Of a stretch of 37,464 nucleotides of DNA, positions 3,809 to 27,650 are shown in pieces (position 1 is the stretch's first letter; each line of letters opens with the position of its first letter). The DNA lies in the IMG/VR virus record IMGVR_UViG_3300044613_002880, positions 1-37,464 of that record. One strand, given 5' to 3'. A program made the translations under genes and the position numbers. A model generated the notes under the pieces. It was not told where the DNA came from. It made no database searches and worked only from the letters and a program-made list of their open reading frames with translations. The stretch is from a virus.

Positions 3809-3810
3809 TT

Positions 3811-4946: not shown

Positions 4947-4949
4947 CCC

Positions 4950-4978
4950 TTGACAATGCACCGATGCCGGTGTATACT
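4950..4978 (+). promoter_or_regulatory. Promoter-operator copy 5
   Basis: Perfect TTGACA (4950-4955), 17 bases, TATACT (4973-4978), palindrome GCACCG-atgc-CGGTGT, with GTCATAG three bases upstream. Confidence 0.87.
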
Positions 4979-5020
4979 GCACCCAGACGAAGACGAGACA
5001 CCACTAACCAGGAGACTTGA
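4952..5020 (+). repeat. 69-bp direct repeat, promoter plus leader (copy B)
   Basis: Second copy of the promoter/leader cassette described at 3083-3151, differing at one operator position. It leads to an ATG gene here rather than a GTG gene. The identity ends right after the ribosome site. Confidence 0.9.
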
Positions 5021-5023
5021 GAC

Positions 5024-5512
5024 ATGGCCGCATTCAAGAAGATCACGATCAGCCCCGAGTCGACGAACCACTGCGACAACGCCGAGAACGTCGCGTACCT
5101 GTACCGGGGCTACTACATCTGGAAGGCCGGAGAGAGCGGCCTGTTCGATGCCTGGAACTTCGCCCCAGCCGTCTACCACACCCCCAAGGCCGCGCTGGGC
5201 GAGACGTTCGAGCCCTACTGGGACGACGACGGCGACACGGAGAGTGCCGCGACTCGCAGTTCCTGCATCAAGGCGATCGACCGGAAGTTCGAGAACGGCA
5301 CGGCCAAGTTCTTCGCCGGTTACGACCCGGACGCCGAGAAGAACGTCACGATCACCGTGTCGTTCAACGACGCCCGGGCGATCCTGGCGGCCCTGAGCCG
5401 TCGCTGCGACGAACTTGCCAGCCTTGGCGGCCCGCAGGCCGACGAGTTGCTGGCCGAGACCAAGACCATCTACCAAGACATCGACCGGCAGGCCTTCCAT
5501 CCGCAGTCCTGA
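5024..5512 (+). CDS. Hypothetical acidic protein
   Basis: 162 residues, ATG at 5024 after AGGAGACTTGAG. The N-terminal half is aromatic (YLYRGYYIWKAG, FDAWNFAPAVYHTP). A central acidic stretch (WDDDGDTES) precedes a helical C-terminus. No signal peptide, membrane segment or known family is visible. It is expressed from promoter copy 5 and followed by a variant GTNYGGATAC motif and the next small gene. Confidence 0.75.
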   Translation: MAAFKKITISPESTNHCDNAENVAYLYRGYYIWKAGESGLFDAWNFAPAVYHTPKAALGETFEPYWDDDGDTESAATRSSCIKAIDRKFENGTAKFFAGYDPDAEKNVTITVSFNDARAILAALSRRCDELASLGGPQADELLAETKTIYQDIDRQAFHPQS

Positions 5513-5514
5513 TC

Positions 5515-5524
5515 GCCCGGATGC
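5515..5524 (+). promoter_or_regulatory. GTNYGGATAC motif, site b (variant)
   Basis: GCCCGGATGC followed by ACACACC, directly after the stop codon at 5512 and about 31 bases before GTG 5556. It is the weakest intergenic member, but position and the ACACACC tail match. Confidence 0.35.
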
Positions 5525-5555
5525 ACACACCACCCTCAACAAAGGAGACCTACCC

Positions 5556-5975
5556 GTGAAGACAAAGACCGTAAAAACCGAAGCCGACATTTTCCACAAC
5601 CGCGTCGTCAAGACCTTGAAGGAGATCAGGGCCAACTTCGAGGAGGCCAAGAAGGACTTCCTCGACTGGGCCAAGAAGAACCCGGCCACTGCCATCGAGG
5701 ACCGTGGGTCGCACGTCGCAGCCTGCCAGGAGTACCACGTCAGGGCCGAGCGTCTGCGTCACTTCCTGGGGCTCGTGGGGGCGAAGTATGGGTACGCCAC
5801 CCGCAAGGAGGCCGTGCAGGCCTGCCTGGACGAGGCCCGCGAGGTCCTGATCCGCGAGGCGGCCAGCGGCAACTCGTCGTGCAACGTGGCGAACGGCATC
5901 GATCAGGCCCGCCGTCGTGGCCTCTACGACGCCGTGCGGACGTTCGAGAACCTTGTCGACCACGAGTTCATCTGA
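5556..5975 (+). CDS. Hypothetical helical protein
   Basis: 139 residues from GTG 5556, chosen because AAAGGAGACC precedes it. An earlier in-frame ATG lies inside the preceding gene. The sequence is charged and almost entirely helix-forming (KTLKEIRANFEEAKKDFLDW, then long Ala/Glu/Arg helices). There are no Cys clusters, membrane segments or enzyme motifs. It resembles the many small regulatory or host-interaction proteins of early phage regions, but the function is unknown. Confidence 0.75.
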   Translation: MKTKTVKTEADIFHNRVVKTLKEIRANFEEAKKDFLDWAKKNPATAIEDRGSHVAACQEYHVRAERLRHFLGLVGAKYGYATRKEAVQACLDEAREVLIREAASGNSSCNVANGIDQARRRGLYDAVRTFENLVDHEFI

Positions 5976-6003
5976 GAGAAGACCGAGCACTGTGTCATAG
6001 GGC

Positions 6004-6032
6004 TTGCAATGCACCGGCATCGGTGCTATACT
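6004..6032 (+). promoter_or_regulatory. Promoter-operator copy 6
   Basis: TTGCAA (6004-6009), 17 bases, TATACT (6027-6032), palindrome GCACCG-gcat-CGGTGC identical to copy 2. TGTGTCATAG (5991-6000) lies three bases upstream in non-coding DNA. Confidence 0.86.
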
Positions 6033-6072
6033 TGGGCAGTCGAGCAAATCACCATCAACAAGGAGACGACCA

Positions 6073-6552
6073 GTGAACGCAACCTACACCAAACTTCGCG
6101 ACGGCTCGTGGGGCATCCGGGTGACTGGCACGGCCAAGGCCGGTGACGTCGTCACCGTCACCAAGCGGTCCGGCGAGACGGTCAACGCGACCGTGGGCCG
6201 CGTCGTCTGGAGCGGCAACGGCGTGTCTCTGTGCGAGGTCGCCGCAGCCGCCAAGCGTGGCCGCCGGGCGGCTGCCAAGCCCCGCGTCCAGCACGGCCCG
6301 GAGGTTCGCATCGAGTATCCCAGCCAGGGGCAGACCTACAGCAAGGATGAGCACGGCGTGTACGCCTACGACGAGTTCCCCGCGTCGTCGGTCCTGGCCG
6401 GGCAGCAACGCCGGGCGTTCAAGACGTCCGGCACCCTGGAGCACTGTCAGGCCTACTGCCAGGAGCACTACGGGAGCGTTCCCGGGCACGTCTCCGGCTG
6501 CGGCTACATCAAGCCCTACGTCGGCCACCTGTCGGACAGTGCCGACTACTGA
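6073..6552 (+). CDS. Two-part phage hypothetical protein
   Basis: 159 residues from GTG 6073 after AAGGAGACGACC. The N-terminal domain (residues 1-55: T-x-LRDGSWGIRVTG, GDVVTVTKRSGE, GRVVWSGNGVSLCEV) is a compact beta-rich module that I recall recurring at the N-terminus of phage and conjugative-element proteins. A basic Ala/Arg linker follows. The C-terminal part has three Cys (EHCQAYCQEH...SGCGYIKPY) that could bind metal. Biochemical role unknown. Confidence 0.78.
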   Translation: MNATYTKLRDGSWGIRVTGTAKAGDVVTVTKRSGETVNATVGRVVWSGNGVSLCEVAAAAKRGRRAAAKPRVQHGPEVRIEYPSQGQTYSKDEHGVYAYDEFPASSVLAGQQRRAFKTSGTLEHCQAYCQEHYGSVPGHVSGCGYIKPYVGHLSDSADY

Positions 6553-6554
6553 TT

Positions 6555-6564
6555 GTCAGGATAC
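6555..6564 (+). promoter_or_regulatory. GTNYGGATAC motif, site c
   Basis: GTCAGGATAC followed by ACTCACC, overlapping the end of the upstream gene's stop region and 32 bases before GTG 6597. Confidence 0.45.
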
Positions 6565-6596
6565 ACTCACCCCCACCCTCAGCCAGGAGACTTCCA

Positions 6597-6866
6597 GTGA
6601 ACACGACCACCCTGACACTCACCGACAAGGAACTCGATTTCCTCAAGGCCAGCCTCCACCGCTCCAGGCAGCGTGGCGAGGACGAGGAGCGAGTCTCCGA
6701 GAAGGCGGGCAACGCCGAGGCTGCCGCCTTCTATCGCCAACTGTCCCGGGCCGCGTCGAGCCTGCTTCTTGTCATCGAGGTGCAGGCGGCGAAGCCGGAG
6801 GAGGACGACGATGACACCTGCCCGGAGTGCGGCGAGGACTGCGGCTTTTGCCAGTGCGAGGACTAG
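6597..6866 (+). CDS. Small zinc-ribbon protein
   Basis: 89 residues from GTG 6597 (CAGGAGACTTCC upstream). A helical N-terminal part (LTDKELDFLKASLHRSR) is followed by an acidic linker EEDDDD and a terminal Cys cluster CPECGEDCGFCQCED. The Cys cluster suggests a zinc ribbon, and the acidic stretch suggests protein rather than DNA contact. The function is unknown. Confidence 0.75.
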   Translation: MNTTTLTLTDKELDFLKASLHRSRQRGEDEERVSEKAGNAEAAAFYRQLSRAASSLLLVIEVQAAKPEEDDDDTCPECGEDCGFCQCED

Positions 6867-6869
6867 CCC

Positions 6870-6898
6870 TTGACAATGCACCGGCCACGGTGTATAAT
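6870..6898 (+). promoter_or_regulatory. Promoter-operator copy 7 (perfect consensus)
   Basis: TTGACA (6870-6875), exactly 17 bases, TATAAT (6893-6898): the textbook bacterial consensus at every position. Palindrome GCACCG-gcca-CGGTGT. TAGCCC upstream matches the other copies although the full GTCATAG does not. Such a promoter would be very strong unless repressed, which fits an operator role for the palindrome. Confidence 0.9.
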
Positions 6899-6940
6899 GC
6901 CCCAGACGCGAACGATTAACCATCAGCCAGGAGACGAACC

Positions 6941-7546
6941 GTGAACTACATCCCCGCCCCCAAGTCGATCGAACTGCACCTCTCGCCGTCGCCGGAGTTC
7001 TCGCGGTACTCGAAGAAGGTCAAGGCTCTCCCCGGCGGCCAGTACAGCGAGTGCCGTGGCAACTCGCATCAGCGGTACGTTCAACTCCCCTGGACGGCCG
7101 AGGGCCGGGCCCTTGCGAACAAACTGGTCGCCGAGTTCGGGCACGTCGCCACAAAACTCCACCGGGGAACCGTCATCATCGCGCGTGGTGTGCCGGGTGC
7201 CTTCCGTGGCAAGCACGTTCACGCCCACGTCGTCGTCCAGTACATCGACAAGACCGAGGCCGATCCGTGCGGCAAGTTCCTGGCGAAGTACGAGGCGGCC
7301 TTCCTCCGGGCCTTCCCCGAGGCGACGGAGCCCGAGCCCGTCGTCGCCCCGGCTCCGAAGGTGCTCCGCGAGTTCCTCGACCTCAACAACGGGGTCAAGT
7401 TCTGGGCCGTCCTCGAAGCCCTGCAACAGTACATCGACAACGGCAACGACTGCCTGGACGGCGACGCGGAGTTTGACGCCAAGATCGCCGCCGCCGAGAC
7501 GTTCCGTGATCAACTCGACGCCGCCCTGGCGTCACTCGCCGACTGA
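6941..7546 (+). CDS. Hypothetical protein
   Basis: 201 residues from GTG 6941 after CAGGAGACGAACC. The N-terminal half is beta-rich and basic (SRYSKKVKALPGGQY, KLHRGTVIIARG, GKHVHAHVVVQY). A Pro-rich hinge (PEPVVAPAPK) separates it from a helical C-terminal part ending in two predicted amphipathic helices. The alternating HVHAHVVV is the only unusual stretch. No family recognised. It is the first gene of the operon behind the perfect promoter. Confidence 0.76.
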   Translation: MNYIPAPKSIELHLSPSPEFSRYSKKVKALPGGQYSECRGNSHQRYVQLPWTAEGRALANKLVAEFGHVATKLHRGTVIIARGVPGAFRGKHVHAHVVVQYIDKTEADPCGKFLAKYEAAFLRAFPEATEPEPVVAPAPKVLREFLDLNNGVKFWAVLEALQQYIDNGNDCLDGDAEFDAKIAAAETFRDQLDAALASLAD

Positions 7547-7548
7547 TT

Positions 7549-7558
7549 GTCCGGATAC
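7549..7558 (+). promoter_or_regulatory. GTNYGGATAC motif, site d
   Basis: GTCCGGATAC followed by ACAAACC, right after the TGA stop and 22 bases before GTG 7581. Matches site a at all ten core positions. Confidence 0.5.
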
Positions 7559-7580
7559 ACAAACCAAAGGAGACCCTCCC

Positions 7581-7760
7581 GTGAAGTTCATCATCACCCT
7601 CAACACCGACAACGCCGCCTTCGACAGCGAGGACACGTCCGAGGTCCGTCGCGTCCTCGCGAAGGCGGCCGATCAGATCAGCGATCCGACCGCCAGCGGC
7701 GGTAGCGTCCGAGACTCGAACGGCAACACCGTATGCACCTGGACAAGCGAGGAGGACTAA
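7581..7760 (+). CDS. Small phage protein
   Basis: 59 residues from GTG 7581, preceded by AAAGGAGACC. The pattern F-I-x-T-L-N-T-D-N-A-A-F then RDSNGNTV is one I recall from short hypothetical proteins of phages of high-GC bacteria. No catalytic or binding motif is visible. It is the last gene before a hairpin and a change in gene-junction style. Confidence 0.7.
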   Translation: MKFIITLNTDNAAFDSEDTSEVRRVLAKAADQISDPTASGGSVRDSNGNTVCTWTSEED

Positions 7761-7794
7761 CTTTCGCCCCCACCAAGCAAGCAATCGAGACTCT

Positions 7795-7819
7795 CAGACT
7801 CGCCGTCGTGGCGACTCTG
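7795..7819 (+). terminator. Hairpin, possible terminator without U-tract
   Basis: CAGACTCGCC (7795-7804) pairs with GGCGACTCTG (7810-7819) with one mismatch and a five-base loop. No T-run follows, so intrinsic termination is doubtful. It lies in the 94-base gap that separates the promoter-rich block from the overlapping gene chain downstream. Confidence 0.35.
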
Positions 7820-7854
7820 GTCCAAAGGAAACACAAGTTGCAGGAGACTGCCCA

Positions 7855-8349
7855 GTGAACGCCACCAAAAGCCAAACCCCCGTGCTCGACTTGATCAACG
7901 CCGCGAAGGCGGCGGGGTGGAAGTACGAGCCCCCGCAGCGGAACCCCAACGCCCTGACGCTCGGCGGCACGACGCACTCGACGCTCATCGCCCCAGGCGT
8001 GAAGGTCGCCGTTGGCAGCCTGCTCCTCTACTACCACGACGGACGAGTTTGGCGAGGGTGCCCCGTCACCGACGCCTCGGAGACTCGCGTCGTCATCGAG
8101 GCGATCGTAGTGGGCCCTGACTTTCGCAGGCACGGTATCGCGACCCGCGCGATTCGAGCGTTGCAGGAGTTGGCCGCCGGGCTCGGGCTGGAGTTGTGGG
8201 CCGAGGCGACGCCGATCGAGGCGTTCAAGGCCAAGGGCCAGCGGACGATCACGACGAGGAAACTCGTGAGGTGGTACAAGTCTCTCGGCTTCGTCGACGC
8301 GTACCCGGGAGAGGGCGATCGAATTCTCAAGTGGAGCAGCGTCCAGTGA
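7855..8349 (+). CDS. GNAT-family acetyltransferase
   Basis: 164 residues from GTG 7855 (CAGGAGACTGCCC). The acetyl-CoA-binding region is clear: VVIEAIVVGPDFRRHGIATR carries the R-R-x-G-x-A/G loop of GNAT enzymes, followed by a helix and a second strand (LELWAEAT). The C-terminal VRWYKSLGF is the usual last GNAT motif. The substrate cannot be deduced. Phage GNAT proteins may modify host proteins, toxins or small molecules. It begins a chain of overlapping genes that runs to 10589. Confidence 0.82.
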   Translation: MNATKSQTPVLDLINAAKAAGWKYEPPQRNPNALTLGGTTHSTLIAPGVKVAVGSLLLYYHDGRVWRGCPVTDASETRVVIEAIVVGPDFRRHGIATRAIRALQELAAGLGLELWAEATPIEAFKAKGQRTITTRKLVRWYKSLGFVDAYPGEGDRILKWSSVQ

Positions 8350-8645
8350 AGACAACCATCCAAACCGAAGACGCGTGGGGTCGACCCATCTACACCTTCA
8401 CTGTCACATTCCAAGAAGTCGGCGGCGAAGGCCGGTCGTGGTCTGGAAAAATCCGCGAGACGGACGAAACGATCAAGGGGCAGTGGCCGAGAGCGGTCAA
8501 ATGCCTCGCGAAACACTTTGACGTCGCGACGAACGCGTTGGGTTACTGCGTCCGCTGGGACGCCGGAAAAATCGTGATGACTCTGAGGTCTGGCGAAGTG
8601 TGCGAGATTCCTGTGACGGCAACTTATCGAAGGAGGTATCAGTGA
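8346..8645 (+). CDS. Hypothetical protein
   Basis: 99 residues. GTG 8346 overlaps the preceding stop as GTGA, indicating translational coupling. Beta-strand-rich N-terminal half (TIQTEDAWGRPIYTFTVTF), one Cys-containing middle segment, and a basic end YRRRYQ. No known family. Confidence 0.68.
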   Translation: MKTTIQTEDAWGRPIYTFTVTFQEVGGEGRSWSGKIRETDETIKGQWPRAVKCLAKHFDVATNALGYCVRWDAGKIVMTLRSGEVCEIPVTATYRRRYQ

Positions 8646-8812
8646 GAATTGAAATCGAAATCACGGCGACGGAGAAGGAGGCTCTGCGACGCGCCATCGC
8701 GGGGCTCGCGGCCGACGAGGCCAAGCGGTGGCTCGGCCGAAAGAGGCCCAGCAAGATTCAACTGGCGTGCGAGAGTCTGTACGAAAAAATCTTCGATAGA
8801 AAGGTGGTCTGA
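8642..8812 (+). CDS. Small hypothetical protein
   Basis: 56 residues from GTG 8642, which overlaps the previous stop by GTGA. AAGGAGG lies just upstream. It consists of a beta strand (RIEIEITATE) and two basic helices (ALRRAIAGLAADEAKRWLG). Similar in size and layout to ribbon-helix-helix proteins, but the match is too weak to call. Function unknown. Confidence 0.62.
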   Translation: MRIEIEITATEKEALRRAIAGLAADEAKRWLGRKRPSKIQLACESLYEKIFDRKVV

Positions 8813-8813
8813 C

Positions 8814-9254
8814 GTGAACTACGCAATCGTCGATCTCGGCACCTTGTGGGACCACGAGGCAGCCAACTGGAGAGACAAGGTCTTCGTGGTCAGCCTCGAA
8901 GACAGCGACAGCCTCGTCGGCATCGGGAACGTATTCGCGGACGTCGGCCAGCCCGACAAGCGGTTCATTTACAGGTACGCGACGGGCAAGTGGGGTGAGG
9001 TGATCGGCGGCAACGATCACCGGCCGTACCACGGCCCCGTGCCATCGCTCGAAGTCTGCGACGTGTGCGAGCGAATCTTCTACTCGAAGACTCGCTGCAC
9101 GAATCGTCGATGCGGCAATTGTCACCGAGAGCACTGTACCAAAAATGGTGCAACCGAGCCGGGGCACGGGCGGACGTGGCCCGAGCCAGTGAACGTCGGA
9201 GAGCATGAAGATCGGCTGAACGTCATTCGCGAACAGATTGGAGGGCGACGATGA
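8814..9254 (+). CDS. Cys-rich zinc-binding protein
   Basis: 146 residues from GTG 8814, one base after the previous stop. The N-terminal half is an unrecognised beta-rich domain. Residues 80-107 carry CDVCERIF...TRCTNRRCGNCHREHC, enough Cys and His for two zinc sites of a ribbon or treble-clef type. A nucleic-acid-binding role is plausible. No nuclease signature such as HNH is complete. Ends in an ATGA overlap with the next gene. Confidence 0.7.
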   Translation: MNYAIVDLGTLWDHEAANWRDKVFVVSLEDSDSLVGIGNVFADVGQPDKRFIYRYATGKWGEVIGGNDHRPYHGPVPSLEVCDVCERIFYSKTRCTNRRCGNCHREHCTKNGATEPGHGRTWPEPVNVGEHEDRLNVIREQIGGRR

Positions 9255-9622
9255 TCCAAGACCCACAAGGCAAGAACCGACCCGTCTACACCGTCAACGA
9301 AAAGAGCGTGAGCCTCTGGCTGCCACGGGCGGACGGAGGTTACGAGTACGAGGAGACCTACGCCAACTTCGAGGACCTGAAGGAGGCCTATCCGGACGCG
9401 GTCAAGAACGTCTTCCGTCGATACCAGCCAAACCGGCGACGGCACCCGGACGTTCACTTTCGCCCGTCTGGGCTCGCGGTCTACTGCCGGAAGTATCTCG
9501 CCCCGGAGGCGACTCTCCAGGCAGATCAACTCGGGAACGCCCAGACGACGACGGACGTCGCCCGCGTGACTTGTAAGACGTGTCTCAAGGCAATCATTTT
9601 TCTCGCACGGAGGATCGCATGA
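9251..9622 (+). CDS. Hypothetical protein
   Basis: 123 residues, ATG in an ATGA junction with the preceding gene. N-terminal YTVNEKSVSLWLPRADGGYEYEE has strand-turn-strand character, followed by an acidic helix and a basic middle part. CRKYL...CKTCLKA near the end supplies three Cys. No family recognised. Confidence 0.68.
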   Translation: MIQDPQGKNRPVYTVNEKSVSLWLPRADGGYEYEETYANFEDLKEAYPDAVKNVFRRYQPNRRRHPDVHFRPSGLAVYCRKYLAPEATLQADQLGNAQTTTDVARVTCKTCLKAIIFLARRIA

Positions 9623-9834
9623 GTTATCGAACCACACGAGTCGCCCTGAGTTCTCCCGACATCATCACCCCTGGCAGCATCGTCCGGCTGGGCGATCGGC
9701 TGCACAAGGTCGTGACGCCGCGAATCCTGGAGGACTGCCTTACGAGGGAATGGGTATACGATGCGTCTTTGTACGGATACGCTGACGCCAAGCCAGTGAA
9801 GGTCGAGTTCGTTTCACCACCGGAGAGAAAGTAA
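9619..9834 (+). CDS. Small hypothetical protein
   Basis: 71 residues from ATG 9619, overlapping the previous stop as ATGA, with GGAGG upstream. Strand-rich sequence (PGSIVRLGDRLHKVV) reminiscent of small SH3-like barrels, but too short to classify. Stop and next start overlap as TAATG. Confidence 0.65.
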   Translation: MSYRTTRVALSSPDIITPGSIVRLGDRLHKVVTPRILEDCLTREWVYDASLYGYADAKPVKVEFVSPPERK

Positions 9835-10172
9835 TGAACATTCTTTTTTTGGACGAAGAGCAATCGCAAGTGATCCCCGCTCTCGCGAAGGCGATGGCTG
9901 ATGCCTCCTCCAAGTGCGCCGCCGCCGCCGAGGCGGAGGGGAACAATGAACAGCGAGACCACTTCCTTGACAGGCAGAAGCAGTACGAGTCTCTGTCCGA
10001 CTCGCTTCAGCACTTCAACGACGTCGACGACACCGCCGCGTACTACTTCTCGACGCCGCTCGGGAGAGCGTACCTCACGGCGGCGTTCGTCGCACTCCGA
10101 CTTCGCGTCGGGCTGGGGCACGCGTGGAATAAATACGTCAAGCCGGAGTTTGAAGCAAGGGAGGCGACATGA
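9834..10172 (+). CDS. Hypothetical helical protein
   Basis: 112 residues. ATG 9834 overlaps the previous stop in TAATG. Ala/Glu-rich helices dominate (AKAMADASSKCAAAAEAEG). The C-terminal part contains a mildly hydrophobic helix (YLTAAFVALRLRVGLG) that is too interrupted for a confident membrane call. Function unknown. Confidence 0.66.
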   Translation: MNILFLDEEQSQVIPALAKAMADASSKCAAAAEAEGNNEQRDHFLDRQKQYESLSDSLQHFNDVDDTAAYYFSTPLGRAYLTAAFVALRLRVGLGHAWNKYVKPEFEAREAT

Positions 10173-10348
10173 ACTGGCTCTTCGGTAGCAAGAATAAGAC
10201 GGACGACCTCCAGGCCCTCGCGACGAGGCTGGAGGCGGACAACGACCGGCTCCGCCGCGAGAACGCCGTGCTCACGAATCTCGTCCGTGCGTTGCGTGAC
10301 GTGAACGAACACCTCGACAAGATGAGGCAATATGAAACGACGAATTGA
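10169..10348 (+). CDS. 59-residue coiled-coil protein
   Basis: A short ORF in an ATGA overlap with the previous gene. After MNWLFGSKNK the rest is heptad-like (LQALATRLEADNDRLRREN, then VLTNLVRALRDVNEHL): a leucine-zipper-type coiled coil with a short hydrophobic N-terminus. A dimeric adaptor or regulator is possible. The following gene starts inside it at 10332. Confidence 0.62.
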   Translation: MNWLFGSKNKTDDLQALATRLEADNDRLRRENAVLTNLVRALRDVNEHLDKMRQYETTN

Positions 10349-10589
10349 CCTTCAGAAGGCGGTCGCGAAGGCCGGTGGCCGAGTCGACGGGTGCCCCCCG
10401 TGCTGGTGTGGCGGAGAGAGACTTGTCGACTCGCCTCCGGACTTCGACCCCTCGAAGCCAGAGTACGTCGACTGGCACGAGGCATTCGACTGCTATGAGA
10501 CCGAGCACCTGGAGGTCTATCTCACGCGGTGCTCGGCCTGCTCACGGCTCTATAATCACGTTTCCAAAAGAACGCCATCGGTGGTATGA
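10332..10589 (+). CDS. Hypothetical Cys-rich protein
   Basis: 85 residues from ATG 10332, overlapping the coiled-coil gene by 17 bases, with GATGAGG upstream. The arrangement CPPCWCGG and CSACSRLY suggests one zinc site, and the acidic middle contains DWHEAFDCYETEHLEVYL. Last gene of the overlapping chain. A degenerate promoter-operator lies at its 3' end. Confidence 0.66.
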   Translation: MKRRIDLQKAVAKAGGRVDGCPPCWCGGERLVDSPPDFDPSKPEYVDWHEAFDCYETEHLEVYLTRCSACSRLYNHVSKRTPSVV

Positions 10590-10590
10590 T
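10562..10590 (+). promoter_or_regulatory. Degenerate promoter-operator copy before the HTH gene
   Basis: TTCCAA (10562-10567), 17 bases, TATGAT (10585-10590). The spacer keeps CATCGGTG, the right half of the operator of copies 2 and 6, but the left half is lost. The element overlaps the end of the preceding gene. It could give autoregulation if the HTH protein binds the operators, which is inference only. Confidence 0.45.
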
Positions 10591-10616
10591 TGACCGCACC
10601 CCCTGGAGAAACTTAG

Positions 10617-10865
10617 ATGAAAGTCACGAAACTTCCCCCTGACCCCGTCTCGACAAGAGACGCCGCCCAGGTGCTCGGAATGTCCATGTCCCACATCCGC
10701 ACTTTGGCACGCAAGAAGATTTTGAAGGCCACGGCCTGGGGGCCGACGCTGGCGTTCAGCCTTGCGGACGTGAGGGCATACGGCAAAGAAAAAGCCGACG
10801 GCCGCAAGAAGGGCAAGGTTCGAGGTGCCCACCCCGGCGGCTTCAAGCCCGATCTTGTGTCATAG
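10617..10865 (+). CDS. Small helix-turn-helix DNA-binding protein
   Basis: 82 residues, ATG 10617 after CTGGAGAAACTTAG. Residues 12-45 (STRDAAQVLGMSMSHIRTLARKK then GPTLAFSLADVRAYG) form the winged-helix layout of the excisionase/MerR-like HTH_17 group: aligned helix, recognition helix and a wing ending in D-V-x-x-Y. The C-terminal tail is Lys/Gly-rich. It is the only recognisable DNA-binding regulator in the promoter-rich block and has a degenerate copy of the operator in front of it. It could be a regulator or excisionase. The stop codon lies in a GTCATAG box. Confidence 0.78.
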   Translation: MKVTKLPPDPVSTRDAAQVLGMSMSHIRTLARKKILKATAWGPTLAFSLADVRAYGKEKADGRKKGKVRGAHPGGFKPDLVS

Positions 10866-10902
10866 TTGAAAAAGTCCTGTTTTCCAGCGATTTTCAGGCC
10901 AC

Positions 10903-10931
10903 TTGCAATGCACCTAGATCGGTGCTATACT
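10903..10931 (+). promoter_or_regulatory. Promoter-operator copy 8
   Basis: TTGCAA (10903-10908), 17 bases, TATACT (10926-10931). Palindrome GCACCT-agat-CGGTGC has one mismatch. The GTCATAG box (10859-10865) is 37 bases upstream instead of 3-15. The extra bases contain A- and T-runs that may act as an UP element. Confidence 0.82.
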
Positions 10932-10969
10932 TGGGGCAGTTCGAGACAACAACCAGGAGAGCCAAACCC

Positions 10970-11359
10970 ATGTCCGCATTCGTCGTCAGCAAAAAACACG
11001 TCGCCGCCCTCGCCAACTACGCCGTCTCCAAGAAGGTCTGGCTCGGCGGCAAGTCTGCCGGGCCCGCAGACTTCGAGAGCATCTACAAGACCCTTGCGGC
11101 CGAAAACGTCCGCAGCGTCTGCCACCGTTACGCCGACGAGAAGCCGGAGGCCTACGCCGACTTTCTCAAGCCCGCCGGTCGCAACACGGTCCTCTACACG
11201 CCGGTCGCCGTGATCAAGTTGGCCCAATGCCTCGACTACCAGTCCTGCGAGACGGACGACTGGAAAGAGACTCAGGCCTGCCGGATTTTGAAGTCGATCA
11301 CCAGCGCGGCTATCGACGCCCTGCCCGGCTACCAGGAAGCACCGTGGGCGATCGCTTGA
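10970..11359 (+). CDS. Phage/plasmid hypothetical protein
   Basis: 129 residues from ATG 10970 (CCAGGAGAG upstream), expressed from promoter copy 8. The opening MSAFVVSKKHVAALANYAV is one I recall from a recurrent small family in phages and plasmids of high-GC bacteria. The middle (NVRSVCHRYADEKPEAY) and the Cys-containing LAQCLDYQSCETDDWKE are helical. The family function is unknown to me. Confidence 0.76.
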   Translation: MSAFVVSKKHVAALANYAVSKKVWLGGKSAGPADFESIYKTLAAENVRSVCHRYADEKPEAYADFLKPAGRNTVLYTPVAVIKLAQCLDYQSCETDDWKETQACRILKSITSAAIDALPGYQEAPWAIA

Positions 11360-11384
11360 CAGAAAAGTACGGACTCGGGTACAC
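11356..11384 (+). promoter_or_regulatory. Promoter with GTNYGGATAC motif, site e
   Basis: TTGACA (11356-11361), 17 bases and GTACAC (11379-11384). The spacer contains GTACGGACTC (11367-11376), a variant of the recurrent motif, followed by GGGTACACACC. The -35 overlaps the stop of the preceding gene. The next GTG is 34 bases after the motif. Confidence 0.5.
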
Positions 11385-11410
11385 ACCTCACCCCCAGAAA
11401 GGACACGACA

Positions 11411-11704
11411 GTGGAGCAAGTCACGTTTCAGGAGTTTGCGAAACGCTACTGCGAGCGGCAGGAGCAGACGCCGGAGGGCCTCGCCGAGGTGCTCCGGGAG
11501 AAGAACACCCTTTTCAAGCCGGTCGGCTGGATGCTCCTCCAGTGCATCGTGCTCGATTCCAGTCGGATCGGGCAATACACGATTTTGCCCTACGGAGGCG
11601 GTGCGACTCTCCAAGAAGTTCCGAGTCGTCCGTTCAGCCCTCGCGGGCTGGCGAGCGACATCAGCGAGGTTGTGTGCTTTATTCCGGCAGAGGAGGTGCC
11701 ATGA
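11411..11704 (+). CDS. Hypothetical protein
   Basis: 97 residues from GTG 11411, with AAAGGACACGAC upstream. Helical N-terminus (TFQEFAKRYCERQEQTPEG) and a hydrophobic middle (VGWMLLQCIVLDSS) that is too short and polar for a clear membrane span. No family recognised. Ends in an ATGA overlap. Confidence 0.65.
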   Translation: MEQVTFQEFAKRYCERQEQTPEGLAEVLREKNTLFKPVGWMLLQCIVLDSSRIGQYTILPYGGGATLQEVPSRPFSPRGLASDISEVVCFIPAEEVP

Positions 11705-12012
11705 AGACTATCCGCCAGCACGAGTATAGAGTCAGCGAGCGTGTCGTCATTCGCCCTGGAGATTCTTTCCGGGCGAAGGGCGGTCCGTACTGGAAATCGA
11801 GCGACGGAGCGAAGATTCGCCTGACGTCGACGGGCCCATTCAAGTTCATTGCCTACGTCAAGCGTGGTGCAGTTGGCTGGATTGAGTGTGTCGACCGAGA
11901 GGGCTGCTTCGCGGTGCTCCACGTCGAGGGTCGCCGGAGGCGGATCGACTGTTCTCTGGTTCCGAGGCCCTACACGATCACCGGAAAAAAGAGGCCTATC
12001 GCGAAGGCTTGA
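11701..12012 (+). CDS. Hypothetical basic protein
   Basis: 103 residues, ATG in ATGA overlap. Beta-rich and strongly basic (VSERVVIRPGDSFRAKGGPYWKS, VEGRRRRIDCSLV, TGKKRPIAKA). The PGDSFRAKGGPYW opening resembles small barrel domains found in phage proteins of unknown role. Nucleic-acid contact is possible from charge alone. Confidence 0.66.
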   Translation: MKTIRQHEYRVSERVVIRPGDSFRAKGGPYWKSSDGAKIRLTSTGPFKFIAYVKRGAVGWIECVDREGCFAVLHVEGRRRRIDCSLVPRPYTITGKKRPIAKA

Positions 12013-12047
12013 CAATAGTGCGATTGCTGGATAAATTGTCTGGACAA
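12009..12047 (+). promoter_or_regulatory. Promoter plus GTNYGGATAC-like motif, site f
   Basis: TTGACA (12009-12014), 17 bases and TAAATT (12032-12037), followed at once by GTCTGGACAA (12038-12047) and GTGAACC. Here the motif variant lies downstream of a complete promoter. TTGTC-TG-GACAA is palindromic at this site. It drives the DUF932-like gene at 12079. Confidence 0.5.
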
Positions 12048-12078
12048 GTGAACCCAAACCCCCGAGGAGTAGATTGAA

Positions 12079-12837
12079 ATGAGCGAGATCAAAAACAAGT
12101 TGTGCCTCCACGCTGGTGCCGCCCTCGTCGATCGCGACGCGGTCAATGCAGTGGCGACGCCAGAGCCGACGGTGTCCGAGAAGAACCGGCTGTGGCAGCC
12201 GGTGGCTCACGGTGCCGTCATCGATGCGGTCGAGAACTCGATCGTCGGCAGCGGACTCTCGATCGCGGATCGGGCGTTCGCTCTGACGAAGGACGGTGCA
12301 AGGTTGTTCGGCCTGATCACTCTCGCGAGCGACAAGCCGGACTACGCGGTCACGATCGGCGTCCGGAACAGTCACGACAAGTCCTTCCCAGTCGGCCTCG
12401 CGCTCGGGAGCCGGGTCTTCGTCTGCGACAATCTGGCGTTCTCCAGTGACGTGAACATCGCCTCGAAGCACACGCGGTTCATCTACGACCGCCTGCCACG
12501 GCTCGTGGCGGACGGCGTGGCTCAACTCGTGGCTCACCGGGCGAACCAGGACCGTCGGATCGAGTGCTACAAGGACCTGGAGATTCGCGGGCAGGCCCAC
12601 CTCCACGACCTCGTGCTCCGTGCCTACCGGGCGCAGGCGATCCCGGCGCAGGCGATCCCGCGAGTGATCGAGGAGTTCGAGGAGCCGCGTCACCCGGAGT
12701 TTGTTGCTCCAACTGGCTGGTCTCTCTTCAACGCGTTCACCGAAGTGCTGAAGCCCTTCGGCGAACTCCAGAAGCGTACCCAGCGGCTCCACGGCATCAT
12801 CGACGCGGAGGTTGGCCCTCAGTTGCTGGCGGTGTAG
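12079..12837 (+). CDS. DUF932-like phage/plasmid protein
   Basis: 252 residues, ATG 12079 with CGAGGAG upstream. The order W-x-P-V-x-H, I-x-x-V, DRAFALTKDGARLFGLITL, IGVRNSHDKSFPVGLALG-x-R-V-FVCDNLAFSSD is the hallmark of the DUF932 family (phage/plasmid-like protein). These are common in mobile elements and often sit near replication or recombination genes. The biochemical role is unsettled. Length fits the shorter family members. The C-terminal half has an internal five-residue duplication. Its position opens the DNA-metabolism module. Confidence 0.85.
   Translation: MSEIKNKLCLHAGAALVDRDAVNAVATPEPTVSEKNRLWQPVAHGAVIDAVENSIVGSGLSIADRAFALTKDGARLFGLITLASDKPDYAVTIGVRNSHDKSFPVGLALGSRVFVCDNLAFSSDVNIASKHTRFIYDRLPRLVADGVAQLVAHRANQDRRIECYKDLEIRGQAHLHDLVLRAYRAQAIPAQAIPRVIEEFEEPRHPEFVAPTGWSLFNAFTEVLKPFGELQKRTQRLHGIIDAEVGPQLLAV
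12631..12660 (+). repeat. Perfect 15-bp tandem duplication
   Basis: GCGCAGGCGATCCCG occurs twice back to back and gives AQAIPAQAIP in the DUF932-like protein. It is in frame, so length changes by slippage would keep the gene open. Confidence 0.9.
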
Positions 12838-16698: not shown

Positions 16699-18321
16699 GT
16701 GATTCAGTACAACGCCGATGAAGTGTTCGCAGCCGCCGCAAGTCTCGCGGCCCGTGGCTGGAAGGTCGTGAAAATCTACGGCCTCCGCGACGACCTCTCC
16801 TGCACCTGCGCCCGTGGCCGATCGTGCCCGTCGGCCGGAAAACATCCCGTCGATCACGAGTGGCAGACAACCGCCACCGACGACGAGAACACGATCGCCG
16901 GGTGGTTCGAGAACACCAACGCCAACGTCCGCTGGAACATCGGCGTTCGGCTCGGGGCGTCGTCCGGGATCATCGACGTCGAGGCCGACGACGACAACGC
17001 ACTCCGCGTCATGCAGGAGTACGGGCTCGACAAGATTTACACGACGGCGTACCAGGGCTCACGCGGGCCGCACTATCTCTTCGAGTATGAGGAGGCCCTG
17101 CCCGCGTCCGGTGTCGTGAAGGTCGACGGGCTCGAAGTTCGGATCGGGGGCGGCGAGAAGGGGACGCAGAGCGTGTTCCCCATGTCGTGGCACAAGACCG
17201 GCGTCCAGTACAAGTGGCTCCCGGGTCGATCGCCGGATGAGGTGCTCCCGGCCAAACTGCCTGCCAAGTTCCTGGAGCGAGTCTTCCAGAAGTCTCGACA
17301 AGGCACGGGCGGTGCCGTCGCTCAGGCTCGCGAGGTCTGTGCCGGTGGCGGCGAGGGCGAGGTGATGAAGGTCTCGACCGGCGGCAGGCACGCGTTCCTC
17401 GTCGGGCTCGCCAGCCGCTATTGCTGGCTGATTCGTCCGGAGTACACGGAGGAGCACAAGAGAGAGGTCTGCGACTGGATGCTTTCCCAGAACGATCGCC
17501 ACTGCGATCCGCCAAAAAGCCGCGACGAGGTGGTCGCGATTGTGAATAGCCAGTTCGCGTTCTACATGGCGAGGGCGGAGGAGCGTCGAGTCAGGCGGCC
17601 CCTGGAGCGGATCGGCCTCGTGTGGAACGGCGAGACGGGAGAGTACGAGCCCGGCCAGTGGCGGCTCACCGTGATTCACAGCGACCCGAGGAGTTACAGG
17701 CTCTCGATCATGCACCCCAAGATTCGAGGGGAGCGAGTTGCCGTTCATATCGACGCCCACACGCTCCGCTCGGCGTCCCTGATGGCTGACGCGATCCTTG
17801 CTTCGACGGGCACGTTCAACCCGGCGACCCCGTCCAGGACAGCCTGGGCGAAGGTCTGGGACGGTGAATCGACTCGCGAGGAGGGCGGCCCCTGGCAGCA
17901 TACCGAGGGGCTCCTCGCCCGCCTCCTGGAGGACTGCGAGGAAGAGTTCCCGCCAGCCGAGTGCAAGACCTACGCGAGGACGGCGAACTGCCTCCTGGCC
18001 TATCTCAGGAGGTTCGGGGCCTCAAACTCCGACGACGGAGAACTGGCGGAGACAGGCACTCCACAGTGGATCAAGAACCGCCGGACGGGCCAGGACGAGT
18101 TGCTCATCAAGTGGGAGACCATGTGGGAGGCCGTCTGCAAGAGATACCCGTTCGTGACGAACCGAGACGTGATCGACCTGCGTCGCCGCCTGTTGCAGGT
18201 CGTGACGCCGGGCCTCGATCGGTTCACGGATCGCCTAGAGACGGTCGGGGGCAACCGCAGCCGGTGGATCGTCTGGTCAGACGAGCACCTCCGCGCCCTG
18301 GAGAAGTTGTCGATCGAATGA
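16699..18321 (+). CDS. Bifunctional DNA primase-polymerase (Prim-Pol)
   Basis: 540 residues from GTG 16699 (AAGGAGGAATTC upstream). The N-terminal Prim-Pol domain is clear: GWKVVKIYGL (20-29), a zinc-type C-x-C...C-x-S-A-G-K-H-P (35-50), metal motif GIIDVEAD (90-97) and S-x-G-P-H-Y (121-126). The remainder contains a helical primase C-terminal-like region (HAFLVGLASRYCWL) and a long charged C-terminus. No Walker A is seen, so a helicase is not fused on. Primer synthesis for phage replication, with the UvrD-type helicase downstream. Confidence 0.88.
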   Translation: MIQYNADEVFAAAASLAARGWKVVKIYGLRDDLSCTCARGRSCPSAGKHPVDHEWQTTATDDENTIAGWFENTNANVRWNIGVRLGASSGIIDVEADDDNALRVMQEYGLDKIYTTAYQGSRGPHYLFEYEEALPASGVVKVDGLEVRIGGGEKGTQSVFPMSWHKTGVQYKWLPGRSPDEVLPAKLPAKFLERVFQKSRQGTGGAVAQAREVCAGGGEGEVMKVSTGGRHAFLVGLASRYCWLIRPEYTEEHKREVCDWMLSQNDRHCDPPKSRDEVVAIVNSQFAFYMARAEERRVRRPLERIGLVWNGETGEYEPGQWRLTVIHSDPRSYRLSIMHPKIRGERVAVHIDAHTLRSASLMADAILASTGTFNPATPSRTAWAKVWDGESTREEGGPWQHTEGLLARLLEDCEEEFPPAECKTYARTANCLLAYLRRFGASNSDDGELAETGTPQWIKNRRTGQDELLIKWETMWEAVCKRYPFVTNRDVIDLRRRLLQVVTPGLDRFTDRLETVGGNRSRWIVWSDEHLRALEKLSIE

Positions 18322-18330
18322 AACAAGCCG

Positions 18331-18451
18331 CTTCCTATATAGGAGACCAACAGACCCAAAACGCACTAAATCTAAAGTCCAAAGTTCAAACACACCATTT
18401 TCGGGTCAGAAGTCCCTTTCATGTAAGGGTTTAGGTCTCCTATATAGGAAG
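18331..18451. repeat. 18-bp inverted repeats in AT-rich gap; candidate replication origin
   Basis: CTTCCTATATAGGAGACC (18331-18348) and its exact reverse complement (18434-18451) are 85 bases apart. Each arm contains the 12-bp palindrome TCCTATATAGGA. A second inverted pair TCCAAAGTTC (18378-18387) and GAACTTTGGA (18451-18460) and a small hairpin CCCTT/AAGGG (18414-18429) lie in the same stretch. The gap 18322-18507 is about 42 % GC in its core against 60-65 % around it. It sits between primase and helicase genes. An origin or a two-operator control region are the main readings. Confidence 0.72.
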
Positions 18452-18507
18452 AACTTTGGATTGTTCTCTCAGGTTCAACAAGTTCACTTTCTGAGGAGGT
18501 AGGCAAG

Positions 18508-20172
18508 ATGGCGAGCATAGAGAGGTGGATCGGCGGACCTGGGACGGGGAAGACCCGGCTGATCCAGGGCGAACTGACCGCGAGCCGCGAGGCCCTCGGC
18601 CTCTCGACGGCGGAGGTCGGGTGCTGCACGTTCACCCGCGCCGGGCGGGCGGAGTTGAGCGAGCGGGTGGCGGCCTCGTGGGGCTGCGAGCCCGAGGCTC
18701 TGACCAAGCACGGTTGGTTCCGGACCGCGCACTCGATCGCGTTCAAGCAGGCCCAGATCGAGGAGGGTCGTCTCCTCGAAGGCGGAGACGGGGCCGAGTG
18801 GGTCAGCGACGCCGTCGGCCAGAAGATCGTCGCCAAGCGGTCCCAGGACGGCGGGACCGAGTTCGAGAGCGGCGAGGGCAACAACTCGGCGACTCTCTCT
18901 CTCAGGGCCTGGGAGTTGGCCCGCCAAACCATGACCACGCTCTCCAGCGTGATCGAGTTGTGGTCGAGCATCGGCGACGACGCCCCGGGGATTTCAGAGG
19001 CCGAGTCGATCGTCAGGAAGTACGAGATCGCGAAGACCCGCGAAGGGCGTATCGATTTCACCGACTTGGTGAGCCTCTACGCAGGCGTCAAGCACTGCCC
19101 GCAGGAGGGCCCGAGCGAGGTGCAGCCTGTCGGAGACGTTCCCGAGTCTCTCCGCGTCCTCGCGATCGACGAGGCCCAGGACTCGTCGGCGATCGTCGAT
19201 CGAATCTGCCGTCGCCTCGCGTCGTCGCCCAACATGGAGAGAGTCTTGATCGTGGGGGACCCGTATCAATCGATCTTCGGTTTCGGCGGCTCAGACTTTC
19301 GCCACTTCCTCGCGTGGGACGCGGAGGAAAAAACGATGGAGCAAAGTTTCCGCTGCCCCGACATCGTGATGAAGTTGGGCGAGTCGTGCATTCGACAAAT
19401 GAGAACGGGCTACCGCGACCGGGGCATCAAGCCAGCGACTCACGACGGGCGGATCGAGCACGCGTTTGACGTGACCGACGCGATCTCTCGAATCAAGCCG
19501 GACAAGTCGACGCTGATCCTCGGCCGGTGTGCGTTCGCTCTCGCCGAGTACGAGGCGGAACTTACGACGGCGGGAATCCCGTACTCGTGGATCGACGCGT
19601 CGCCCGGCGGCAGTGCATTGTCTGGATACAGGGCGTTGTGGGACCTGGAGCACGGCGAGGTCGTGAGCGGACCGGAGTGGGCTGCCGCCGTCGCGATCCT
19701 GGCTGTGAAGCACAAGGAGTTGGGAAAACTCCTGCATCACGGTGAGAAGACCGCCTGGGCGAAGGGGAACAGATCGGACGTCGATCTCGTTCTGCCCATC
19801 CCAGAGTACCTGGAGAGGGCGGGCTGCGAGCAGCCGCTCATCGAACTGATCAAGGCGGGCAGGTGGGCCGAGGCGATGGACACAAAGCACGCCGCGAAGG
19901 CTGACGCGTGGCGGCGATGCGCGGTGTCGCACGGCCCCGAGTTGGCGACGAGCCCGAAGACTCGCCTCTCGACGATCCACTCGGCGAAAGGGTGCGAGGG
20001 CGACACGGTGATCCTGTCCACGATTTCCTCGAAGGCAGTCGAGACGGCGAGGCTTTCACTCTCTTCGCGATGGGACGAGGAATGCCGCGTGAACTATGTG
20101 GCAGTGACCAGGGCGAGGGAGAATCTGATCGTGGTAGACGACGGAGGAAAGTACCGCCTGGAGTTGCCGTAA
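18508..20172 (+). CDS. UvrD/Rep-like superfamily 1 helicase
   Basis: 554 residues, ATG 18508 after GAGGAGG. All SF1A motifs are present in order: I GGPGTGKT (9-16), Ia TFTRAGRAEL, II IDEAQDSS, III VGDPYQSIFGFGGSD, IV EQSFRCP, V STIHSAKGCEGD and VI NYVAVTRARENL. It is shorter than host UvrD (about 720), as phage members often are. 3'-5' DNA unwinding in phage replication or recombination is expected. The stop overlaps the next start (TAATG). The gene contains an in-frame GTCTGGATAC (19620-19629), probably by chance. Confidence 0.92.
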   Translation: MASIERWIGGPGTGKTRLIQGELTASREALGLSTAEVGCCTFTRAGRAELSERVAASWGCEPEALTKHGWFRTAHSIAFKQAQIEEGRLLEGGDGAEWVSDAVGQKIVAKRSQDGGTEFESGEGNNSATLSLRAWELARQTMTTLSSVIELWSSIGDDAPGISEAESIVRKYEIAKTREGRIDFTDLVSLYAGVKHCPQEGPSEVQPVGDVPESLRVLAIDEAQDSSAIVDRICRRLASSPNMERVLIVGDPYQSIFGFGGSDFRHFLAWDAEEKTMEQSFRCPDIVMKLGESCIRQMRTGYRDRGIKPATHDGRIEHAFDVTDAISRIKPDKSTLILGRCAFALAEYEAELTTAGIPYSWIDASPGGSALSGYRALWDLEHGEVVSGPEWAAAVAILAVKHKELGKLLHHGEKTAWAKGNRSDVDLVLPIPEYLERAGCEQPLIELIKAGRWAEAMDTKHAAKADAWRRCAVSHGPELATSPKTRLSTIHSAKGCEGDTVILSTISSKAVETARLSLSSRWDEECRVNYVAVTRARENLIVVDDGGKYRLELP

Positions 20173-20969
20173 TGAAGACCCTGCTCGCGTTTCTCTTGCT
20201 CGCCGGTTCTGTGTTTGCTGGAACGATCGATCCAAAGGCCTCAGACCAGAAGCATCTCGATTACGGGAGCCAGTTCGAGTGCGTTGCCAAAATCTCATGC
20301 CGCTACACAAAGTCCGGCGTCACGGGATGGGCATCGTGCGTCATCATCTCAGAGCACTGGATCGTGACGGCCGCCCACGTCGTCGCGGAAGCCGAAGACT
20401 GGGTCGTGTACGTCTCCGGCGAGAAGTATCCGCTCGACCGGGTCTACGTTCACGAAGACTTCGAGACAGGCAATGGCAACGACATCGCGGTCGGCCATTC
20501 GGAAAGAAAGATTGCCCTGTCTTTCTTTCCGGCGTTGTACGGACAGGAGGACGAGCAGGGGCAGGTCGTCTCGATCTGCGGTCACGGCATCGCTGGCACG
20601 TTTGCGACCGGGCACGTCCTGGCCGACGGGAAGAAACGCGCGGGCTCGAACATGGTGGACTACGTCGACCCGAAGGGGCTCCTCGTGTGCTCAGTCGGCA
20701 GCGGCACGGCCACGCAACTGGAGTATCTGATCAGCCCTGGCGACTCGGGCGGCGGCCTATTCGTCGGCAAGGAATTGGCGGGCATCAACTCGGTCGTCAT
20801 GTCGGTGGGCAGGGCCCCGCTCTCGAAGTGGGGCGACGAGTCTGGGCACACAAGAATCTCGAAACACAAGGAGTGGATTTGTGAAAGAGTTGCTGTTCGA
20901 GAAGGCCCCGGAGGAGAGGGACGGGCAGGCAAAAAAGAAGGTCTCGAAGCGGAAACGCCAGGAGACTGA
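20172..20969 (+). CDS. Secreted trypsin-like serine protease
   Basis: 265 residues. A clear signal peptide MKTLLAFLLLAGSVFA with cleavage near A16-G17 is followed by a trypsin-fold domain. The triad is H69 in TAAHVV, D104 in GNDIAV and S192 in PGDSGGG. Cys residues are present but pairings are uncertain. The last 30 residues overlap the next gene in another frame and are basic and low in structure. Export across the inner membrane is expected. A phage-encoded secreted protease could act on surface proteins, in lysis, or in defence against other phages. Unusual within a replication module. Confidence 0.88.
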   Translation: MKTLLAFLLLAGSVFAGTIDPKASDQKHLDYGSQFECVAKISCRYTKSGVTGWASCVIISEHWIVTAAHVVAEAEDWVVYVSGEKYPLDRVYVHEDFETGNGNDIAVGHSERKIALSFFPALYGQEDEQGQVVSICGHGIAGTFATGHVLADGKKRAGSNMVDYVDPKGLLVCSVGSGTATQLEYLISPGDSGGGLFVGKELAGINSVVMSVGRAPLSKWGDESGHTRISKHKEWICERVAVREGPGGEGRAGKKEGLEAETPGD

Positions 20970-23808: not shown

Positions 23809-24679
23809 CCTCCTCTCCGAGGACGAAGACCCGTTCTCGACGAACAAGGTCACGGGCTACTCACTGAACGTCCCGATCATCGGCACCTGCCAGCCTACGA
23901 TCGTCTGCGCAGACACCTGCTACTTCGCCGCAGGCCCCTCGACCTGGACTGCAAGTCTCAGGAAGCAGCACCGTCTGATGAACTCGATCAAAGCCGATCC
24001 CCGGGGCGTCGCGGAGCGAATCGTGAAGTCGGCGCGTCGGAAGAAGATGACGTTCATCCGCTGGAACGGTGGCGGAGACTTGTTCGAGGAGTCGGTCGCG
24101 TGTCTCGACGCTGTGGCCGTCGCGATGCCGGACATTCCCCAGTGGGTCGTGAGCCGCATTCCGAAGATCGCTGCCCAAGTCACGCCCAGGCCTAACGTCT
24201 ACTTGCACTTCAGTGTCGACCGCTCGTCGTGGGCTCGGCTCGAAGAGTTTCGCGGCCTCGCCCCGGCTGGCCTCCAGTGGTTCTGGTCGTATCAGTGCGA
24301 CAAGGACGAGCAGCCCGCGAGCGGCGACATCGCCCCGGTGATCTTCCGCGACGGCTATGACCCGAAGGGGTCGCCATTGTTTGGAAACGATTGCCCACTC
24401 AATTCAAACGAGGACATCACCAACGTCTGCGAGGGATGCAGACGCTGCTTCAACGGAGGGGCCGTTGAAAGGGCAAAGGAATGCCGTGGATTGTCTACGA
24501 GACGAGGAACATCGTCACAGGAGACTTGTACGTCGGAGTCTGCAAAACAACTCGACCTAACTTTCACCTCTACCTCGGCAGCGGATCGGTCCTGCGAAAC
24601 GCGGTCCGAAAGTACGGACGAGATTACTTCGAGCGGACGACGCTCATCGAAGTCGAGACGGCAGAGGAGGCCTACTTAA
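23765..24679 (+). CDS. Gp88-like protein, C-terminus probably disrupted
   Basis: 304 residues as read, from ATG 23765. Residues 20-235 resemble the phage 'gene product 88' family: GYSLN-x-P, T-C-x-P-T, CADTCYFA-x-G, KQ-x-R-L, WNGGGDLF, QWFWSYQCDKDEQ, NDCPLN and CEGCRRCFNG with clustered Cys. The last 65-70 residues are Ser/Thr/Arg-rich and are simply the next gene read in another frame. The native end therefore probably lay near 24460 and was replaced when the GIY-YIG gene entered. Function of the family is unknown; the Cys pattern suggests metal. Confidence 0.74.
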   Translation: MSVKTLSKKHKPYSDLLSEDEDPFSTNKVTGYSLNVPIIGTCQPTIVCADTCYFAAGPSTWTASLRKQHRLMNSIKADPRGVAERIVKSARRKKMTFIRWNGGGDLFEESVACLDAVAVAMPDIPQWVVSRIPKIAAQVTPRPNVYLHFSVDRSSWARLEEFRGLAPAGLQWFWSYQCDKDEQPASGDIAPVIFRDGYDPKGSPLFGNDCPLNSNEDITNVCEGCRRCFNGGAVERAKECRGLSTRRGTSSQETCTSESAKQLDLTFTSTSAADRSCETRSESTDEITSSGRRSSKSRRQRRPT

Positions 24680-25029
24680 TCGAGGCGTCCGTCGTCGACG
24701 AGGAGTGGGTTGCGAGACCAGACACCTACAACCTCAAGACCGGCGGCATGGGAGGCATGGGATTTAGTTTCCCCATGCCAGAGGCGGCGAAGGAAAAGAT
24801 CAGGCAGTACAGGCTCGGAAGAAAGCACACGGAGGAGACGAAGTCAAAAATCAGAGACTCCGTGAAAGGACGAGTGTGGACTGATGAAGATCGCAGAAGG
24901 TGCTCGGAGGCCGCAACCAGATCAAACACAGGCCGAGTTTTGAGCGAGGAGACGCGACGCCTCCTGTCCGAGCGACAGAAAGCGGCGTGGGCGAGGGGTA
25001 GGAAGTCACGCAAGGGAGATGCCACTTGA
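24481..25029 (+). CDS. GIY-YIG homing endonuclease with NUMOD3-like repeats
   Basis: 182 residues, ATG 24481 after AAAGGA. The nuclease domain reads IVYETRNIVTGDLYVGVCKT, YLGSGSVLRNAVRKYG, and AYLIEASVVD with the catalytic Glu. The C-terminal DNA-binding part has NUMOD3-like repeats (GRKHTEETKSKIRDSVKGR, TGRVLSEETRRLLSERQKAAW), as in T4 Seg enzymes. A free-standing homing endonuclease is the best reading. Its 5' 199 bases overlap the preceding Gp88-like frame and its end overlaps the VRR-NUC gene by 11 bases. Confidence 0.87.
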   Translation: MPWIVYETRNIVTGDLYVGVCKTTRPNFHLYLGSGSVLRNAVRKYGRDYFERTTLIEVETAEEAYLIEASVVDEEWVARPDTYNLKTGGMGGMGFSFPMPEAAKEKIRQYRLGRKHTEETKSKIRDSVKGRVWTDEDRRRCSEAATRSNTGRVLSEETRRLLSERQKAAWARGRKSRKGDAT

Positions 25030-27257: not shown

Positions 27258-27650
27258 ATGATTGCGTACCTTTTGATGCTCGTGGCCCAGGTGGCCGTTT
27301 CGCCGGAGCCGTGCTCGGTCCTGACTCCAGGCGAGAACCAACTCGTCGAGAAGACGAACGAGGCTCGCATCACGAACGGACTCGCTCCGCTTGTGATCGA
27401 CTGCCGACTGATGGGCTCGGCTCGTCGCCACGCTCGTCGCTTGGCAAGGGAGATGGCTTTCTACCACTCGACCGGAGTGGCGGAGAACATCGCCACGGGC
27501 CAGCCGTTTGCGAGCGACGCTGTCGTCGTTTGGCTTCACTCACCAGGGCACCGAGCCAACATCCTGGGCAGGAACTACAGCCGAATCGGCGTGGCCGGGT
27601 TCGTAGCCCCCAACGGCAAGACCTACTGGGTGCAGCAGTTCGCACCGTGA
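27258..27650 (+). CDS. Secreted CAP (SCP/PR-1) domain protein
   Basis: 130 residues from ATG 27258 (AAGAAGGGA upstream). A short signal-like segment MIAYLLMLVAQVAVS is followed by a compact CAP domain: NEARITNGLAPLVI, SARRHARRLAREM, HSTGVAENIA, VVWLHSPGHRANILG and YWVQQFAP. The His and Glu of the CAP cavity (H-S-T-G-V-A-E-N) are present. CAP proteins are extracellular; bacterial roles are poorly known. In a phage it may act on the cell surface or as a virion component. Confidence 0.86.
   Translation: MIAYLLMLVAQVAVSPEPCSVLTPGENQLVEKTNEARITNGLAPLVIDCRLMGSARRHARRLAREMAFYHSTGVAENIATGQPFASDAVVVWLHSPGHRANILGRNYSRIGVAGFVAPNGKTYWVQQFAP

Follow-up and report, generated by a model that had tools for sequence, protein, structure and literature searches.

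In pRN1, the replication origin is a 100-bp stem-loop directly downstream of the ORF904 Prim-Pol gene, and the authors who described it proposed a similar stem-loop origin for phage BIP-1 (PMC4234260). In phage P4, the alpha protein is a primase-containing initiator that binds origin repeats with a winged helix (PMC4234260), while the two origins of SPP1, oriL and oriR, share direct repeats that are bound by one initiator, gp38 (PMC6316719). A winged helix that reads short repeats is also found in TcpK of plasmid pCW3, which binds tandem GGAACTTTA oriT boxes mainly through its wing (PMC6137059).

Here, we analyzed the IMG/VR virus record IMGVR_UViG_3300044613_002880 over its full length of 37,464 bp (hereafter the window); it is apparently a partial genome, as no small terminase gene was found in it. 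The window carries a Prim-Pol gene, an AT-rich gap and a UvrD-type helicase gene in direct succession, and to our knowledge the origins of phages with Prim-Pol primases have barely been mapped. Judging from comparison of this gap with its counterparts in related phages, we propose with a probability of about 0.68 that it is an iteron-type replication origin of an uncultured tailed-phage family.

Anatomy of the gap between the Prim-Pol and helicase genes

A first-pass annotation of the window, made from the letters alone, had singled out positions 18322-18507 as a candidate origin lying between genes for a Prim-Pol and a UvrD-type helicase, and domain searches confirmed both families (PF09250 and PF00580), with the two genes on the same strand. 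The gap measures 186 bp and has 42% GC, versus 64% in its flanks. Its features are as follows.

16699..18321, plus strand: Prim-Pol (AEP) gene, 540 aa (PF09250, E=1.3e-20)
18331..18348, plus strand: inverted-repeat arm 1, CTTCCTATATAGGAGACC, with a homologous arm in relatives
18375..18381, plus strand: iteron-like copy S1, AAGTCCA (word slot compared across relatives)
18382..18388, plus strand: iteron-like copy S2, AAGTTCA, adjacent to S1 (word slot compared across relatives)
18403..18433, plus strand: spacer block GGGTCAGAAGTCCCTTTCATGTAAGGGTTTA, containing the hairpin at 18414-18429; AAG..TTT partly conserved across relatives in the alignment
18434..18451, plus strand: inverted-repeat arm 2, GGTCTCCTATATAGGAAG, with a homologous arm in relatives
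18450..18456, minus strand: iteron-like copy S3, inverted, reading AAGTTCT on the minus strand and forming the second inverted pair with S2
18471..18477, plus strand: iteron-like copy S4, AGGTTCA (word slot compared across relatives)
18480..18486, plus strand: iteron-like copy S5, AAGTTCA, 9 bp after S4 (word slot compared across relatives)
18493..18499, plus strand: Shine-Dalgarno sequence of the helicase gene, GAGGAGG, identified from sequence
18508..20172, plus strand: UvrD-type superfamily 1 helicase gene, 554 aa (PF00580, E=2.6e-23; phrog_1967)

The gap had also been described as both the most AT-rich and the largest intergenic stretch. The former holds, since its GC content is the lowest of the record at scales of 100, 150 and 186 bp; the latter cannot be certified, as unannotated stretches of 458, 316 and 297 bp (60-62% GC) are longer according to a simple gene finder that may have missed genes. 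A GC-skew profile, which the annotation had suggested as a check, has no turning point at the gap and gives no origin signal there.

The 18-bp perfect inverted repeat was found at 18331-18348 and 18434-18451, with TCCTATATAGGA in both arms. Allowing up to two mismatches, this motif occurs within the 37,464 bp only in the two arms (expected 0.23), and the arm core CTATATAG is confined to the same two places (expected 0.01). The inverted-repeat score of the gap was matched by 0 of 60 dinucleotide-type shuffles. Of the smaller structures noted earlier, the second inverted pair (18378-18387 and 18451-18460) is real and turned out on comparison to be built from two of the five iteron-like words, and the small hairpin (18414-18418 and 18425-18429) is present in the window, surviving in the nearest relative, L003, only with two G-U pairs.

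Elsewhere in the window, positions 1-12100 hold an array of clear sigma-70-like promoters (TTGCAA or TTGACA, 17 bp, TATACT or TATAAT), many of them immediately upstream of genes that have an AGGAGAC-type leader, and 14 sigma-70-like sites were counted in the early region against 1.6 expected. A trypsin-like protease gene follows directly after the helicase gene (20172-20969), and further downstream lie genes for a NUMOD3-motif protein, probably a homing endonuclease (24481-25029), and a CAP-domain protein (27258-27650).

The gap is conserved in related uncultured phages

DNA searches with the gap in phage and plasmid collections returned no match, searches with the full-length primase and helicase returned one close relative only, and no primase relative was found in the genome collection. 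That relative, L003, has a primase 83% identical to that of the window and a gap of equal length without indels, and its record likewise contains the CTATATAG core only at the two arm sites. The two gaps are 79% identical, against 55-58% identity at fourfold sites of the flanking genes, which indicates that the gap is under selection. A search with the C-terminal segment of the helicase brought in 15 further records (L140-L154) besides L003; the helicases of L003 (3408-5927) and L143 (1709-4213) contain an intein inserted after GDPYQ (PF14890, E 9e-9 and 7e-9, one just below and one just above the curated cut-off), which is absent from the window's helicase.

We compared 16 gaps, namely those of the window, L003 and 14 of the records L140-L154, with L146 left out because it begins inside the helicase; 11 of the 16 are distinct, the identical sets being L140-L142, L144/L145, L147/L148 and L151/L152. 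In all 15 records other than the window, an AT-rich gap of 174-193 bp lies at the Prim-Pol/helicase junction, with 38-45% GC between flanks of 61-66% GC, so that the gaps are moderately AT-rich, without a distinct element of very high AT content. The two CTATA-core arms have their centres 101-105 bp apart in all 11 gaps measured, corresponding to 9.6-10.0 helical turns, while gap length itself varies from 174 to 193 bp. Pairing between the arms extends over 18 of 18 positions in the window and 15 of 15 in L149, with weak complementarity in L141 and L147, so a long stem-loop is not conserved in all family members.

In viral and genome contigs scanned for the paired CTATATAG pattern, none of the matches listed had homology to the family helicase or primase. 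One stretch, at L094:8783-8894 in a 62% GC contig, carries CTATATAG sites spaced at about 104 bp within a longer inverted repeat, and the part of the contig that was examined showed no primase or helicase homology to the window's phage family.

Iteron-like words change in concert within each phage

Each gap contains 4-5 copies of a word of about 7 bp at homologous positions. Two of them stand side by side in the stretch separating the arms, another follows arm 2 in inverted orientation in most gaps, and one or two more precede the start of the helicase gene. The word itself is specific to each clade: AAGTTCA in the window, L003 and L143-L145; AGATCCA in L140-L142; GGGGTAT in L147, L148 and L154; and AGATTCC in L149-L153. 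Agreement among copies was greater within a phage than between phages, with as strong a result in 2 of 720 permutations for the direct copies, 10 of 720 for the inverted copy and 13 of 720 for the arms, figures that are descriptive rather than an independent test because, although slot positions were set on the alignment, the pattern was first noticed in the same sequences. Wrong-orientation controls of the permutation test were not significant, and the copy number of 7-mers within any single gap did not exceed that in shuffles. Iterons recognized by a cognate protein would be expected to behave in this way, differing between clades and agreeing within a phage.

A second cluster lies beside the terminase gene in three relatives

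Our analysis also revealed a second cluster, built from the same word and arm core as the first, in all three genomes that cover the HNH/terminase region (G003, G010 and G012). It follows the HNH gene (PF01844) and precedes the small terminase gene (PF05119) where the record extends that far. Scans of these three whole records returned the two clusters as top matches and no comparable third, whereas the window, G006 and G016, whose records lack the HNH/terminase region, have the first cluster only. The parts of the second cluster are ordered differently from those of the first; its arm spacings vary, and we claim no helical phasing for it. A terminase search among the smaller relatives added only G009, with a terminase identical to that of G010. 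In several family records the sequence breaks off at most a few hundred bases from the small terminase gene (the end of L168, the start of L160 and the end of L171), and these breaks possibly mark physical genome ends.

Competing explanations

The main rival to an origin, which we consider unlikely, is a transcription control region in which the words and arms serve as binding sites for a phage regulator that controls, possibly by DNA looping, the helicase operon and, at the second cluster, the terminase operon. Both clusters do lie upstream of codirectional genes, and an arm spacing of about ten turns in 11 of 11 gaps would suit the two-operator loop that the first-pass annotation had offered as its own alternative. 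The CTATAT core is moreover similar to a -10 box, preceded in L003 by TTTGAG at a distance of 17 bp, but this -35-like match is not kept in the window, and the coding strands of all gaps and second clusters lack sigma-70-like sites. The single hit in these regions is weak and on the minus strand (L147/L148), while the same genomes carry 8-9 near-consensus sites elsewhere. Nor is the element part of the phage's many clear promoters: the scattering of the motif over other promoters that would have favored regulation was not seen, the arm motif being absent from all other promoters of the window.

It is more improbable still that the gap acts as a structured RNA leader of the helicase mRNA, with the arms paired and the inner word either forming a pseudoknot with the inverted copy or pairing with the copy near the ribosome site, so as to tune translation. 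The window gap folds better than shuffles (z -4.3), and between the window and L003 three paired positions have changed on both sides and 5 of 7 single changes keep G-U pairs; the L003 gap, however, folds no better than shuffles (z -0.8), the gap has no Rfam match, and folding is just as good for the minus strand and for single-stranded DNA. The concerted change extends to direct copies, between which no pairing is possible, an observation after which our early idea of an RNA pseudoknot lost ground, and the second cluster stands upstream of a different gene with its parts rearranged. Least credible, and in our view very improbable, is a packaging or genome-maintenance site at which the small terminase or an HNH-linked factor binds the words, with the primase-side copy as a second recognition site: the second cluster lies between the HNH and small-terminase genes, a usual place for packaging sites, but the first cluster is found in every record covering the Prim-Pol/helicase junction, where a packaging site is not expected.

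Prim-Pol as a candidate initiator

The window's Prim-Pol consists of an N-terminal Prim-Pol domain, middle domains and a C-terminal predicted winged helix, and its AlphaFold2 model has pRN1 ORF904 as best match (Z 12.4). Pfam found no helicase domain, SF3 included, within the protein. The winged-helix topology is predicted for the C-terminal 143 residues (about 398-540), whose structural matches include TcpK as the best, CRP-type regulators, and the C-termini of the SCCmec Cch and SaPI Rep replication proteins. All of them score modestly (best Z 5.8, Foldseek E 0.01), and a profile search of PDB sequences with this domain did not find TcpK, so that no sequence homology was detected. On the opposite strand, the window's word reads AGAACTTTG, and in the alignment the sequence of the wing differs between iteron clades. 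This evidence suggests, without proving it, that Prim-Pol is the origin-binding initiator that recognizes the words through its C-terminal winged helix; another phage protein could also be their binder.

Discussion

Our results support, and do not prove, the origin interpretation of the first-pass annotation. We favor an iteron-type origin because the layout of iterons plus arms is conserved and the words change in concert within each phage, because a second copy exists beside the terminase gene, and because the Prim-Pol, with its predicted winged helix, is similar to pRN1 ORF904, the gene of which is likewise followed directly by the origin. At such an origin, Prim-Pol made from the gene just upstream would use its C-terminal winged helix to bind the five words of 7 bp, and the inverted CTATA arms, acting as a second set of sites or as a stem, would order the complex and help to open the AT-rich DNA. 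Prim-Pol would presumably then synthesize primers at the opened gap, with the UvrD-type helicase or host helicases extending the bubble. The second cluster of the relatives may serve as another origin, or it may arrest forks close to the packaging region.

Comparison of uncultured phages yields predictions of a site and its words, of the protein likely to bind them and of a further site. Clade-specific words could make it possible to relate specificity to the sequence of the wing in the winged helix, and the presence of a copy next to the terminase gene raises the possibility that replication and packaging are linked. A bolder and quite tentative reading, which we would sooner doubt than adopt, is that of a two-site origin system not described before, with a stand-alone Prim-Pol bearing a TcpK-like winged helix, a rapidly changing 7-bp word recognized by it at two sites in each genome (next to the Prim-Pol gene and next to the terminase gene), an SF1 UvrD-type helicase instead of SF3 or DnaB, and replication linked to packaging.

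Among described systems, TcpK provides the best fold match of the Prim-Pol C-terminus, and GAACTTT is common to GGAACTTTA and the other strand of the window's word; TcpK is, however, a conjugation protein without detectable sequence homology and with another box spacing, and other clades of the window's phage family use other words. P4 likewise combines a primase-containing initiator, repeats at the origin and a winged helix (binding in the window's family being predicted), but its primase belongs to the bacterial Toprim type and forms a fusion with a helicase. The likeness to SPP1 is one for which we claim no sequence relation; the SPP1 initiator is not a primase and works with a DnaB-type helicase, and oriL is located within the initiator gene. 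In both pRN1 and the window, a Prim-Pol replication gene is followed directly by an inverted-repeat region of about 100 bp, the primase fold is common to both (at the Z given above), and a C-terminal winged helix is present in pRN1 and predicted in the window. In contrast, pRN1 lacks iterons and carries an SF3 helicase in the same protein, a fusion not found in the window, where iterons are accompanied by a separate UvrD-type helicase as the next gene; the stem, too, is weak in some relatives of the window phage. The gap element combines traits of pRN1 and SPP1, and differs in its iterons, in the lack of a fused SF3 helicase and in having a UvrD-type helicase as its neighbor.
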